A DNA stretch of 64,000 nt from Winogradskyella sp. (GTDB lineage: Bacteria > Bacteroidota > Bacteroidia > Flavobacteriales > Flavobacteriaceae). The DNA lies in contig NZ_RHLG01000004.1 of assembly GCF_003712105.1 (NCBI RefSeq), positions 62,001 to 126,000 of the forward strand, given 5' to 3'. The notes below the pieces were generated by a model. That model searched no databases, had not been told where the DNA came from, and was given only the letters and a program-made list of their open reading frames with translations. Each line of letters starts with the position of its first letter. Positions within the stretch are counted from its first letter, which is position 1. The position numbers and the translations under genes are program-made. Shown here in pieces: positions 58,636 through 63,801 of the stretch.

Positions 58636-59961
58636 ATGAGCAAAGATTACAATAATCCTGCTTTCAAAAAGCTTTTAGAGAAGTTACAAGAAGAAAGCTG
58701 GCAATTAGAATTACTAATATCCGGTTTTGCAATATTTGGATTGTTTACAGCTTATGAGCCTATAATTATGTACCATAGCGAATCTATTGCTACTGGACAA
58801 GAGTATCAAAGAGCTGTATTTACGGTAGCAAGGATTTCTTGTATTATATTAATATTTAGCCTACTCATCCATGTCTTACTCAGAGGTATATGGATAGGTG
58901 CATTAGGACTTCGTTATGTTTCTGGAGAAATAGACTATGAAGAACTAAATTATAGTGAGAAATTCACCAAGTACCTAAAGAAAAAAGTAGGCTCTTTTGA
59001 TAAATATATTGCCACTTTAGAAAACTACTGCAGTATTATATTTGCTGCCTCCTTTCTTCTAATATTTTATGTCTTAGCTATGACCTTTGTAATTATTACA
59101 ATTGGGTTTATCGCCAACAATATACTAAGTAGTGATTTTTTACCTGACTGGATGATCGCCGTAATTGGCATACCGCTTATGTTATTTGTCGTGATAGGTA
59201 TGATACTCACCTTTATCGACTATGTTACTCAGGGGTTTTTGAAGAAAAAGAAATGGATATCAAAGATTTATTTTCCATTTTATTGGGTGTTTAGTTTTAT
59301 AACGCTGGCCTTTTTATATAGACCCATTGTTTATAATTTCTTGGATAATAAGTTTGGAAGGCGTTTTAGCATGTTGCTACTGCCCTTATTTATTATTATC
59401 GCTATCTCTTTCTCTTTAGAGTATAATTTCTCGAATTATTTCAGTACTGAAAACCAATCCAATGATTACATTTCTAATAGAGAAAACTATGAAGATTTGC
59501 TAGATGAGAAATCAGGATTTGTCGACAATGTTGTCATTCAATCTAAAGTGATAAAAGAGAACTATATCAAGGTATTTGTGCCTTATTCTGAACGTATTGA
59601 AAATAGAGTATTCGCATTTAATGAAGGTCTAAGACCAGAAAAAGATATTCGTGGTTTAGATACCGACATCATTGTTTTTAGTAATGGTAATAATGTGAGA
59701 AATAGAGACAGTCTAAGACGAGAATATTTGTCAACCTTTAATAAAATTTATTACACCAAAATTGATACGACAGTAGTTGATTCTGAATTTATTGTTAGCC
59801 AAACTAAAAAAGGTACTCTGGGTTTTGAGACGTTCTTATCAATTGAGGGACTACCGAAAGGCAAGCATGTATTAGAGTTCAAAAGAATGGGGTTAAACCG
59901 TAATAACGACACTGTATATTTTGGCATACGAAAAATACCGTTTTGGTATTTTCCTAACTAA
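58636..59961 (+). CDS. Multi-pass membrane protein of unknown function
   Basis: A 441-residue protein with about six hydrophobic segments in its first 265 residues: about 22-45, 52-80 (VARISCIILIFSLLIHVLLRGIWIGALGL), 130-160, 172-200, 215-235 and 248-262. A soluble domain of about 175 residues follows. That C-terminal part (about 265-441) is charged and beta-rich (KVFVPYSERIENRVFAFNEGLRP ... GLPKGKHVLEFKRMGL) and ends FGIRKIPFWYFPN. There is no signal peptide. I know similar flavobacterial proteins without function. It converges with, and overlaps by 4 bases, the anti-sigma-like gene. Confidence 0.75.
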   Translation: MSKDYNNPAFKKLLEKLQEESWQLELLISGFAIFGLFTAYEPIIMYHSESIATGQEYQRAVFTVARISCIILIFSLLIHVLLRGIWIGALGLRYVSGEIDYEELNYSEKFTKYLKKKVGSFDKYIATLENYCSIIFAASFLLIFYVLAMTFVIITIGFIANNILSSDFLPDWMIAVIGIPLMLFVVIGMILTFIDYVTQGFLKKKKWISKIYFPFYWVFSFITLAFLYRPIVYNFLDNKFGRRFSMLLLPLFIIIAISFSLEYNFSNYFSTENQSNDYISNRENYEDLLDEKSGFVDNVVIQSKVIKENYIKVFVPYSERIENRVFAFNEGLRPEKDIRGLDTDIIVFSNGNNVRNRDSLRREYLSTFNKIYYTKIDTTVVDSEFIVSQTKKGTLGFETFLSIEGLPKGKHVLEFKRMGLNRNNDTVYFGIRKIPFWYFPN

Positions 59962-60356
59962 AATTGTATTCTCTTATTGACATAAGATTTTAGGAAGGTT
60001 ACTTGCAGGCCTATCATTACAGCTAACACTACCATAGCGTACATCAACTTCTTAGGAAATGTAAAATTTAAGTCATTTAAAGGATTCAACTTTATTTGCG
60101 ACAAATTTAAGAGTTCTGAAACTCTTGAATCTGATTCTCCTTGGTTTAGGAAGACATATATTAAAAGCGCTATGAGAGATATAATTACAACGCCCCAAAC
60201 TTTTTTAGATATTAAAGGTTTGTAAGCAGTAATACGTGATTTGACCTCTAACTTTTCTACAATAGCATTTGTAAAATCTACTGATGGTTTATCTAATGTA
60301 TCATCAGCCATAAGCCTGTCTATAAATGCTTCAAGTTTCTTTTCATTAGGTTCCAT
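59958..60356 (-). CDS. Probable membrane anti-sigma factor (partner of the downstream-overlapping ECF)
   Basis: A 132-residue protein. The N-terminal 45 residues are charged and helical (MEPNEKKLEAFIDRLMADDTLDKPSVDFTNAIVEKL) and probably cytosolic. Two membrane helices follow (about 52-69 and 104-122), with a short extracytoplasmic loop between them. It has no zinc motif and no similarity to known anti-sigma domains that I can see. The call rests on context: its start overlaps the ECF sigma gene by 11 bases, the usual place for a dedicated anti-sigma. The small size means little sensor domain, so signal input might come through another protein. Confidence 0.6.
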   Translation of the reverse strand: MEPNEKKLEAFIDRLMADDTLDKPSVDFTNAIVEKLEVKSRITAYKPLISKKVWGVVIISLIALLIYVFLNQGESDSRVSELLNLSQIKLNPLNDLNFTFPKKLMYAMVVLAVMIGLQVTFLKSYVNKRIQF

Positions 60357-60924
60357 AACTACTTATTTTTTCTGTCTTTAGATGCTTTTCTAAAATTACA
60401 GCTAATTTTTTTCGAGCTCTAAAAAGTTTCACTTTTATTGTATTAGATGAAGCTCCAATTATTTCAGACATTTCATCTAATGATAATTCTTCAAAATAGT
60501 AAAGTGTTAATATATAACTATCATCACTAGGTAACATTTCAATACATTGTTTTATAAGGTTAGATTTTTCTGTTTTAATCATTCCTTCTAAAGCGTTATC
60601 TACAGATTCTAGTTTATTAAAACTAAATTCATCAATAGGAACATCATTAAAATGTTTCTTATTCTTTTTTATTCTATCTAAGCAGGTGTTATAAGTCACC
60701 CTATAAATCCATGTAGAAAATTTAGAATCTCCTTTAAATTTATTTAATGACCTATATACCTTTATAAATGCGTCCTGCGCAACCTCTTCTGCCTCTTCTC
60801 TGTGCTTCATCATACGTAACGACAATGTGAACACTAAATCCTTGTAACGGTCTACCAACTGCCCATAGGCACGATGGTCGCCATCAATAATAGATTTAAT
60901 AAGTTGATTGTCGTTAGTGGTCAT
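60346..60924 (-). CDS. ECF sigma factor, probably autoregulated
   Basis: A 192-residue group-4 sigma factor. Region 2 reads YGQLVDRYKDLVFTLSLRMMKHREEAEEVAQDAFIKVYRSLNKF, with KGDSKFSTWIYRVTYNTCLDRIKKNKK for -10 recognition. Region 4 is YILTLYYFEELSLDEMSEIIGASSNTIKVKLFRARKKL. Upstream lies an ECF-type promoter, CTGTAACCTAA-N11-GTCGTC (60962-60935), whose mirror image faces the divergent gene at 61059. This suggests the sigma factor drives its own operon and its neighbour. With the -10 only 10 bases from the ATG, the leader would be very short. Confidence 0.92.
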   Translation of the reverse strand: MTTNDNQLIKSIIDGDHRAYGQLVDRYKDLVFTLSLRMMKHREEAEEVAQDAFIKVYRSLNKFKGDSKFSTWIYRVTYNTCLDRIKKNKKHFNDVPIDEFSFNKLESVDNALEGMIKTEKSNLIKQCIEMLPSDDSYILTLYYFEELSLDEMSEIIGASSNTIKVKLFRARKKLAVILEKHLKTEKISSYGT

Positions 60925-60934
60925 TTATATTTAA

Positions 60935-60962
60935 GACGACCAAATAGTAAGTTAGGTTACAG
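60935..60962 (-). promoter_or_regulatory. ECF-type promoter of the sigma operon (mirror copy)
   Basis: Reading leftward: CTGTAACCTAA, 11 bases, GTCGTC. Seen as -35 TGTAACC, a 16-base spacer and -10 CGTC, it has the AAC and CGTC core of many ECF promoters. It forms a perfect 11-base inverted repeat with the copy at 60985. Confidence 0.75.
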
Positions 60963-60984
60963 AAATAAAAAAAAATAAAAAATG

Positions 60985-61012
60985 CTGTAACCTAATTTTA
61001 AAACTTGTCGTC
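60985..61012 (+). promoter_or_regulatory. ECF-type promoter of the DUF6249-like gene (mirror copy)
   Basis: CTGTAACCTAA (60985-60995), 11 bases, GTCGTC (61007-61012), identical in words and spacing to the leftward copy. The two -35 parts are back to back across a 22-base A-rich spacer (60963-60984). The ATG of the rightward gene is 46 bases downstream. Confidence 0.75.
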
Positions 61013-61058: not shown

Positions 61059-61403
61059 ATGGATGAAGATATTTTAATACCTATCAGTCTATTTGCAGCA
61101 ATTTTCGGAATCGTTTACTTATACTTTTCTACAAGAAATAAAGAAAGACTTGCATTAATAGAAAAAGGAGCTGACGCTAGTATTTTTAACCTTGGAAAGC
61201 GAACAGGTTCATCTTGGAAAGTTGTGGTTCTAAACTTAGCTTTTCTTTTAATGGGCATCGGGTTAGGTGTCTTTATAGCTAATATTTTAGACACGTATTC
61301 TGGTTTAGACGACGAAGCTGTATATCCTGCCATGATATTCTTAATGGCTGGTGTAGGACTATATGTAGGCTTCACACAAACTAAAAAAGCATTAGAAGAC
61401 TAA
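61059..61403 (+). CDS. Small DUF6249-like membrane protein
   Basis: A 114-residue inner-membrane protein with three hydrophobic segments: about 5-22 (ILIPISLFAAIFGIVYLYF), 52-74 (VVVLNLAFLLMGIGLGVFIANIL) and 85-104. The loop RNKERLALIEKGADASIF after the first helix (the E-R-x-x-x-I-E-x-G signature) is what I associate with DUF6249. It is divergent from an ECF sigma gene and has the same promoter element, so it is probably a target of that sigma. Its stop is followed by a strong terminator. It might modulate the membrane anti-sigma, but that is conjecture. Confidence 0.75.
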   Translation: MDEDILIPISLFAAIFGIVYLYFSTRNKERLALIEKGADASIFNLGKRTGSSWKVVVLNLAFLLMGIGLGVFIANILDTYSGLDDEAVYPAMIFLMAGVGLYVGFTQTKKALED

Positions 61404-61423
61404 ACAAATCAATCAACCCAATT

Positions 61424-61463
61424 AAAAACGCCGCTATCATAATTATTGATAGCGGCGTTTTTT
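61424..61463 (+). terminator. Strong terminator after the DUF6249-like gene
   Basis: A 16-base-pair perfect stem (AAAAACGCCGCTATCA / TGATAGCGGCGTTTTT) with a 7-base loop, then more T. The best terminator of the window. Confidence 0.95.
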
Positions 61464-61478
61464 GTGTTAAGAAAAATG

Positions 61479-62481: not shown

Positions 62482-63168
62482 TCACTCCGCAATTTCAAAA
62501 TTAAAAAAAGTATCAGGAAATGGTTCACCTCTGAGTGTAAAATGCCACCATTCTTTTGGGTAATTTCTAAATCCAAATTTTAACATGACATCCTGAAGTT
62601 TTTTCCTGTTTAGCTTTTGTTGTTCAGTTATATTTTGATAATCAACCCAAGAAGCTTCCCCAAAAAAATCGAAGGCACTTCCCATATCTAGAGGAATTCC
62701 CGTCTCGCCACTGATAATAGTTAAGTCCACAGTACTACCTCGGCTATGACCAGACTTGCTAGCTATATAACCTTCTTTAAATAGATTTCGTTTTTTAACA
62801 TCCGGATAAAACTCAGACTTTTTTAATGTATCATTAATCTGTCTTGCCCAACGTACAAAATGATTTACAGCACGCTGTGGTCTATAACCGTCGTAAACCT
62901 TAAGACACAAGTTTTCGTTCTGCAAATAATCATGTACAAGCTTCAATTGTGTTGCAGCAGCTTTTGTAAGGTATAAGGTGTTAGACTTATATCCTTCAAT
63001 AGTATCTCCAACAAAATTATGAGTAGAATAATATTTCAATTCCACATTTAAATCAGGAATAACTTCAGAAACTTTTATAAAGTCTTTTGGAATGGAATTA
63101 TCTTGACGTACTGCTAAAAGAGAATAGCAGACTAACAAAAGAAATAAGCTATTTTTGTAAAACTTCAT
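62482..63168 (-). CDS. M15-family D-alanyl-D-alanine dipeptidase (VanX/DdpX-like)
   Basis: A 228-residue zinc dipeptidase that splits D-Ala-D-Ala, for cell-wall recycling. A signal-like hydrophobic stretch opens it (FYKNSLFLLLVCYSLLAV). The metal site is complete: His141 and Asp148 (SGHSRGSTVD, the SxHxxGxAxD motif) and His209 with catalytic Glu206 (EWWHF). Arg96 in DGYRPQRA is the transition-state-stabilising residue. The length fits VanX/DdpX (about 200) plus a signal peptide, suggesting a periplasmic housekeeping enzyme. There is no vanH/vanA companion, so no reason to infer glycopeptide resistance. Confidence 0.9.
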   Translation of the reverse strand: MKFYKNSLFLLLVCYSLLAVRQDNSIPKDFIKVSEVIPDLNVELKYYSTHNFVGDTIEGYKSNTLYLTKAAATQLKLVHDYLQNENLCLKVYDGYRPQRAVNHFVRWARQINDTLKKSEFYPDVKKRNLFKEGYIASKSGHSRGSTVDLTIISGETGIPLDMGSAFDFFGEASWVDYQNITEQQKLNRKKLQDVMLKFGFRNYPKEWWHFTLRGEPFPDTFFNFEIAE

Positions 63169-63195: not shown

Positions 63196-63801
63196 ATGGA
63201 TTTGTTCTCAGAAACACATCAACCATTAAATCTTCCTGATGCTGAGTTAATTTACATCCCAAATTTCTTTTCTCAGACAGAAGCAGATAATTATTTTAAT
63301 TCAATATTAAAACAGACAGATTGGCAACAAGATGATATTACTGTATTTGGAAAAACCTACAAACAACCAAGGTTAACTGCACTATACGGAAGCTCCTTAA
63401 GACCATATTCTTATTCTAATATTACAATGTATCCCAAACCGTTTCCAGGCTATATTCTGGATATAAAAAAGAGAGTAGAAAGTATTGCTCATCATGAATT
63501 CAATACAGTTTTGCTGAACCTTTACAGAAATGGAAATGATAGCAATGGCTGGCATTCAGATAATGAAAAAGAACTTGGAAAACATCCAATAATTGCATCG
63601 GTTACGTTTGGTGAAGAACGACCATTTCACTTTAAACATAGACAATTAAAAGAACAACGTCATAAAATAATTTTAAAACACGGTAGTCTTTTAATAATGA
63701 AAGGCACCATGCAATCGCATTGGTTACATCAGATAGCGAAAACAAGAAAGGTTATTGAGGAACGAATTAATCTTACTTTTAGAACTATAATAGGTATATA
63801 A
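63196..63801 (+). CDS. AlkB-like 2-oxoglutarate/Fe(II) dioxygenase
   Basis: A 201-residue DNA-repair-type dioxygenase that oxidatively removes methyl groups from bases. Iron ligands are His120 and Asp122 (NGWHSDNEKEL), and His178 in IMKGTMQSHWLHQI. The 2-oxoglutarate arginine is in the final ERINLTFR. LYGSSLRPYSYSNITMYPKPFP and PIIASVTFGEERPFHFKH are typical of the bacterial ALKBH2/3-like branch. It diverges from the M15 gene across 27 bases with no room for a long control region. No ada or alkA gene is adjacent. Confidence 0.92.
   Translation: MDLFSETHQPLNLPDAELIYIPNFFSQTEADNYFNSILKQTDWQQDDITVFGKTYKQPRLTALYGSSLRPYSYSNITMYPKPFPGYILDIKKRVESIAHHEFNTVLLNLYRNGNDSNGWHSDNEKELGKHPIIASVTFGEERPFHFKHRQLKEQRHKIILKHGSLLIMKGTMQSHWLHQIAKTRKVIEERINLTFRTIIGI

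Follow-up and report, generated by a model that had tools for sequence, protein, structure and literature searches.

The window, a 64,000 bp stretch of a Winogradskyella sp. genome (3.15 Mb in 10 contigs), carries near its right-hand end a sigma factor gene and a gene for a DUF6249 protein, oriented divergently around an intergenic gap of 134 bp (Table 1). The coordinates originally given for these two genes were correct, judged from the open reading frames and from matches to Pfam. The product of the first is an ECF (group 4) sigma-70 factor of 192 aa, its matches to the Pfam families for regions 2 and 4, as well as to the TIGR02937 sigma70-ECF model, all exceeding the respective cut-offs; likewise, the product of the second scores 56.8 bits against PF19762, for which the cut-off is 33. 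The nearest solved relative of the sigma factor is Bacillus SigW, which gave both the best match in profile searches of the PDB (5wuq, E = 6.8e-35) and the best NCBIfam score, although at 139.5 bits the latter falls below the NCBIfam cut-off of 209 and the protein is therefore not called SigW. The same PDB searches with the DUF6249 protein and with the small protein encoded beyond the sigma gene returned nothing convincing. Further along the window lie what we take, by eye, to be a D-Ala-D-Ala dipeptidase-like gene (62482-63168, reverse strand) and an AlkB-like gene (63196-63801, forward strand). A scan with a consensus pattern listed no terminators; the support for the terminator-like hairpin in Table 1 is its folding energy.

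Within the gap, the sequence TGTAACC-N16-CGTC occurs twice, once on each strand, with the copies pointing away from each other. Each can be extended to CTGTAACCTAA-N11-GTCGTC, beginning at 60985 on the forward strand and at 60962 on the reverse; direct reading and a script agree that the two copies, and the equal spacing reported for them in the original prediction, are exact. In the window the 11 bp halves of the arrangement (60952-60962 and 60985-60995) form a perfect inverted repeat flanking 22 A-rich bases. The combination of an AAC-type -35 and a CGT-type -10 element is a recognised signature of ECF promoters (PMC3426412). The housekeeping promoter motif TAnnTTTG is absent from the window's gap. 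Across 79 loci, it occurs in the gap in 10 in the direction of the sigma gene and in two in the other, less often than in mononucleotide shuffles (17.1 and 5.1, respectively), and a housekeeping promoter of this type was accordingly rejected.

Table 1. Features of the sigma factor/DUF6249 locus, in coordinates of the window
Feature	Position	Strand	Basis
Candidate anti-sigma factor, 132 aa, hydrophobic stretches; start overlaps the end of the sigma gene	59958..60356	-	ORF and overlap
ECF sigma factor, 192 aa, sigma-70 regions 2 and 4	60346..60924	-	Pfam Sigma70_r2 1.2e-18, Sigma70_r4_2 5.9e-15
Predicted ECF-type promoter of the sigma operon, TGTAACC-N16-CGTC; CGTC to sigma ATG, 10 bases	60935..60961	-	Sequence and conservation
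A-rich 24-base spacer separating the two 7-base -35 words	60962..60985	.	Sequence
Predicted ECF-type promoter of the DUF6249 gene, TGTAACC-N16-CGTC	60986..61012	+	Sequence and conservation
A/T-rich conserved region, promoter to DUF6249 start codon	61013..61058	+	76 aligned DUF-side regions
DUF6249 protein, 114 aa, conserved loop RNKERLALIEKGADASIF	61059..61403	+	Pfam PF19762 2.4e-15; alignment of 32
Terminator-like hairpin 3' of the DUF6249 gene	61420..61466	+	MFE -25.0 kcal/mol

Conservation and arrangement of the paired sites

Conservation was assessed at 80 named loci, the highest-ranking of at least 299 relatives; the nearest named ones are Winogradskyella species with 82% identity in the sigma protein. 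Sites were picked as the best matches with a spacer of 15-17 bases, in ranges of 150 bases on the sigma side, where every row was kept, and of 200 and then 500 bases on the DUF6249 side. The sigma-side site was matched at 11 of 11 positions in 75/80 loci and at 10 of 11 in the remaining five (L125, L136, L145, L163 and L167), all of which have AGTC for CGTC. On the opposite side, 75/80 loci had an 11/11 site within 200 bases, one (L126) had a 10/11 site and four had none. The apparent loss in three of these four (L159, L163 and L172) was rejected when an exact 11/11 site was found within 500 bases, bringing the total to 78 exact sites and one at 10/11; in the fourth, L147, only 54 bases of contig were available. 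With that locus excluded for its contig end, both sites are present in 79/79 judgeable loci, so that the two elements anticipated to be conserved beside orthologous sigma genes both are. The spacer is 16 bases in 159/159 sites, with no ties at 15 or 17 among the 156 tested, and TGTAACC-N16-CGTC thus stands as the consensus originally proposed, with AGTC as its minority variant. By contrast, the seven more distant sigma matches (L026-L032) lack the pair, three of them having just one match, standing alone some hundreds of bases upstream.

The conservation is unevenly distributed. TGTAACC is identical in 80/80 sigma-side and 75/76 aligned DUF-side sites, as is the GTC of the -10 element in 156/156, whereas the other four bases of the 11 bp repeat are much less conserved across relatives and the promoter spacer on the sigma side is poorly conserved (mean identity 0.43). 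Past the -10 element the two sides differ, with CGTCTTA preceding the sigma gene and CGTCATAAGCTATGAAC preceding DUF6249. The inverted repeat reported for this locus, although perfect in the window, is consequently not what has been maintained: across the aligned relatives, the conserved unit is the 7-base -35 word together with its own -10 element.

Nevertheless, a perfect inverted repeat whose 7-base words are nearly invariant is also what would be expected if TGTAACC/GGTTACA were an operator bound by a dimeric regulator, whether repressor or activator, instead of serving as two -35 elements. The words lie 24 bases apart in the window and 19 to 203 bases apart across the 79 named loci, with a further genome (G193) at 16: the value is 19-35 in 68 loci and 43-44 in five, the others having 66, 132, 142, 162, 186 and 203 (the last three obtained by subtraction). 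That the separation of the words drifts, while the interval between a word and its own -10 element (CGTC or AGTC) is 16 in all 159 sites, indicates two promoters and not one operator; the neighbouring gene, moreover, encodes an ECF sigma factor. The operator reading was rejected as very improbable on these grounds. Most of the distances cluster at 27-35, and a few loci group at 19-24 or at 43-44, which raises a separate question of helical phasing.

The number of individual sites carries little information. The only two exact N16 matches in the genome are those in the gap, but the reversed control pattern is equally frequent, also occurring twice (four times when N15-17 is allowed), which makes the single-site number uninformative. 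It is the mirrored placement that goes beyond what chance would give. Of 397 Flavobacteriaceae genomes, 108, representing 81/237 genera, carry the mirrored pattern, always at one place each, and none carries the corresponding control; all 30 of these 108 loci that were read sit between homologues of the ECF sigma and DUF6249 genes. In a set of 395 genomes from across the phylum, a slightly relaxed pattern was present in 10/41 members of the family and 1/354 others, with no control matches. This sole match outside the family (L231) is likewise neighboured by homologues of the sigma factor (39%) and of DUF6249 (33%).

Probable recognition by the adjacent sigma factor

The distribution of the pair follows that of the sigma gene. 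Across the 37 Winogradskyella genomes common to both searches, the exact pair is present in 22/23 of those with the sigma factor (E = 7.5e-74 or better) and 0/14 of those without (best E = 2.6e-31); the 23rd sigma-positive genome, G008, has CGTAACC on the DUF6249 side. A sample of 120 family genomes was divided at a threshold drawn after the scores had been seen, 52 having an orthologue at E = 1.2e-50 or better and one (G096) a partial gene at 1.3e-43, with the rest at 3.5e-41 or worse. Here the exact pair was found in 36/53 sigma-positive genomes and in 0/31 of the sigma-negative genomes listed by name; the other 36 sigma-negative genomes also lack it, provided that they are the remaining handles of G091-G209. 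Of the 17 sigma-positive genomes that lack the exact pattern, 15 still carry the two sites, each with 10 or 11 matching positions out of 11 and a spacer of 16, but either the gap falls outside the range of the pattern or the first base of a -10 element is changed. The other two, G106 and G202, have the sigma-side site alone within 500 bases, with a spacer of 15 in the former. Fisher's exact test returns 2.5e-9 for the genus and 6e-18 for the family when all 67 sigma-negative genomes are counted, values which are too optimistic because the genomes are related and the counts hence not independent. Some genomes also duplicate the records behind named loci: four of the 17 above, G135, G156, G172 and G175, correspond to L131, L125, L145 and L136.

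In four sigma-positive genomes (G203, G186, G167 and G111) both -10 words are AGTC, as expected if one sigma factor reads both sites. The occurrence of AGTC on both sides in these genomes, and on the sigma side of the five named loci given above, may also reflect a shift in sigma factor specificity.

This genome contains 24 sigma-like matches at E <= 0.001, the window's own included, and the 37 genomes of the genus each contain between nine and 30. One or more paralogous ECF sigma factors, perhaps several with overlapping specificity, might read both promoters, with the neighbouring sigma gene merely being a target; overlapping ECF regulons have been considered possible in Flavobacterium psychrophilum (PMC9723704). 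Against this, the 14 sigma-negative genomes of the genus have other sigma-like genes and no exact pair, and the 31 named sigma-negative genomes of the family lack the pair too, making recognition by a paralogue improbable. Instead, the comparison of genomes supports the original proposal that the sigma factor encoded at 60346-60924 recognises the element and controls both its own operon and the DUF6249 gene. We put at roughly 0.88 the probability that the gap holds two divergent ECF promoters of the same consensus, read by this sigma factor and generating positive feedback on its own operon along with the DUF6249 gene.

Such a circuit would very probably have the sigma factor activating itself and a single neighbouring gene. 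RNA polymerase carrying it would initiate leftward into the operon of the sigma and small protein genes, and rightward into the gene for the putative DUF6249 membrane protein. Once the small protein, a likely membrane protein, released the sigma factor, expression of both arms would increase in concert through positive feedback. The small protein is a candidate anti-sigma factor. In 79/80 named loci an ORF of 131-143 aa starts within a stretch that runs from 38 bases ahead of the sigma stop codon to 98 bases past it, and 57 of these proteins were aligned with that of the window. The 80th locus, L158, gave an artefact owing to a frameshifted sigma gene. The small protein was also detected by tblastn at 23 of the 30 pair loci read. 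The window's small protein matches no Pfam family over the cut-off, and RseA_N has a weak match in 2/58 members (best E = 0.016), amid many that resemble chance.

As an observation in its own right, at L158 (Winogradskyella endarachnes, on the same contig as L025) both promoter sequences are intact beside the apparently frameshifted sigma gene.

Predicted transcripts and extent of the regulon

The distance from CGTC to the sigma ATG stays within 9-12 bases over the 80 loci, being nine bases in two loci, 10 in 45, 11 in 28 and 12 in five, such that the sigma mRNA is probably nearly leaderless. Similarly, the mapped start of the Bradyrhizobium japonicum EcfF promoter, six bases past the -10 box, overlaps the annotated ATG, and its authors moved the start codon (PMC3420878). 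In the window, the next methionine of the sigma factor is residue 38 and is preceded by conserved residues, making the upstream ATG more likely to be the real start. Leaderless transcripts constitute 5.5% of the mapped mRNAs of F. psychrophilum (PMC9723704).

The DUF6249 gene, by contrast, is preceded by around 45 conserved A/T-rich bases between the promoter and the start codon, as seen in 76 aligned regions. Over its first 14 bases this leader has a mean pairwise identity of 0.74, higher than in the promoter spacer (0.59) or in the opening 42 bases of the gene (0.52). The sequence TTAATCAATTAAAAA followed by ATG was found in 37 rows (33 places) across 68 genomes of the genus, compared with one for the control. 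Ten such places lie elsewhere in the genomes, and the leader word is thus largely, but not wholly, tied to the DUF6249 locus; the window's own leader lacks the exact word. The leaders are unstructured, with a mean folding energy of -0.32 kcal/mol. A candidate hairpin, CATA...TATG, suggested by apparent covariation in a handful of leaders, was rejected: counting Watson-Crick pairs only, its outer four pairs form in 62, 52, 54 and 69 of the 76 leaders and a fifth in 10. A leader peptide was similarly dismissed as the conserved unit, since 33/76 leaders have no ATG though their nucleotides are conserved; of the 43 with an ATG, 31 have it in frame with a conserved stop (ATG...TAA, approximately eight codons).

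The expectation that the pattern would provide a key to a wider regulon was not borne out. Allowing up to one mismatch, a scan of the whole genome found 33 sites, including the two exact ones, against 38 for the control. A weight matrix built from 156 sites was applied to the two exact sites and 28 of the 31 with one mismatch, and the best of the others (L178), scoring 18.4 where the lowest training score was 17.6, lies inside a coding sequence. Hence no convincing further promoter of this type was identified in the genome, and the regulon is probably small, in this genome probably confined to the two divergent transcripts, with weaker sites possible.

The one doubtful candidate, TGTAACC-N16-TGTC (G000:C6:846836-846862, or L240 3836-3862, reverse strand), has a matrix score of 6.2 and lies 54 bases upstream of a second, diverged module (G000:C6; L240 1456-3782, reverse strand), raising the possibility of a link between the two; at the counterpart of this module in another genome, G024 (L241), no matrix score exceeds 2. 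The second module is a co-directional run of genes for a hydrolase-like protein of 366 aa (named by eye), a DUF6249-like protein, whose 27.9 bits fall short of the cut-off (33), an ECF sigma factor and a 107 aa protein. G024 has the same layout, its DUF6249-like protein scoring 25.9 bits. This recurrence in another arrangement supports an association between DUF6249 and ECF sigma factors.

It also bears on the role of the DUF6249 protein, which might be a signalling partner, as a sensor or co-anti-sigma factor, and not the system's output. The placing of DUF6249-like, sigma and small protein genes in a single run in both genomes is in keeping with this idea, as is the near-invariance of the charged loop of DUF6249 in the alignment of 32 proteins. 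Yet a conserved neighbouring target would also fit an effector, as illustrated by the partner genes of ECF41 (PMC3426412), and DUF6249 matches also occur outside such loci, in the Caulobacter, Bacteroides and Haloferax control genomes. We regard the signalling role as plausible, at a little under even odds. More speculative, and on balance unlikely, is a fuller version in which the locus is a self-contained ECF switch of two transcripts only, with a leaderless sigma mRNA and DUF6249 as an unrecognised membrane partner (sensor or co-regulator), inherited as one unit through the Flavobacteriaceae and, on the evidence of one genome, beyond.

Relation to characterised ECF systems

The sigma factor lacks defining features of the two ECF groups whose promoters most resemble those described here. 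ECF16, exemplified by BcrS of Brucella melitensis and EcfF of B. japonicum, shares the -35 word TGTAACC and a similar spacing. One site upstream of bcrS and another upstream of bcrX have been predicted, on opposite strands and at a distance of 38 bases from each other (PMC8315932), which would constitute a mirrored pair according to our interpretation of the coordinates in the published table. However, ECF16 has CGAA as its -10 element and, as its anti-sigma factor, a DUF1109 protein that spans the membrane with six helices (PMC8315932), whereas the -10 element here is CGTC, rarely AGTC, GGTC or TGTC, and no DUF1109 was present among the matches listed for the adjacent proteins (the first 25 of 71 families). 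Furthermore, the partner genes of ECF16 serve in oxidant resistance, and 36 genes are differentially expressed in the case of BcrS (PMC8315932).

ECF41 shares the -10 element and spacer length, recognising TGTCACA-N16-CGTC, and its detected targets are neighbouring genes only (PMC3426412). It differs in its -35 word, in having a fused C-terminal regulatory domain and in having no obvious anti-sigma factor. In the present case the -35 word is TGTAACC, region 4 of the 192 aa protein extends no further than residue 174, and a small, probable membrane protein is encoded alongside. Closer in phylogeny, promoters mapped in F. psychrophilum, of the same family, include a set with a CGT box at -10 ascribed to ECF sigma factors (SM6), one of which precedes a sigma/anti-sigma operon; the resemblance extends to the -10 box, the available text giving no -35 word (PMC9723704). 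By contrast with the locus described here, SM6 spans several genes, including components of type IX secretion (PMC9723704).

A literature search found no description of a sigma factor/DUF6249 module, although an ECF group number for it may exist, and DUF6249 is not mentioned in the available portion of a regulatory study of Bacteroides thetaiotaomicron (PMC12596196). ECF16 and ECF41 are precedents, with the present locus representing a new, uncharacterised case in which conservation of a mirrored, probably autoregulatory promoter pair is unusually strong. Within the Flavobacteriaceae, it gives a group of ECF sigma factors a firm consensus for their promoters, as well as a genetic landmark. The locus could serve as a compact divergent promoter part that comes with its own sigma factor, and it gives DUF6249, for which the one literature mention found concerned plant kinases, a context.
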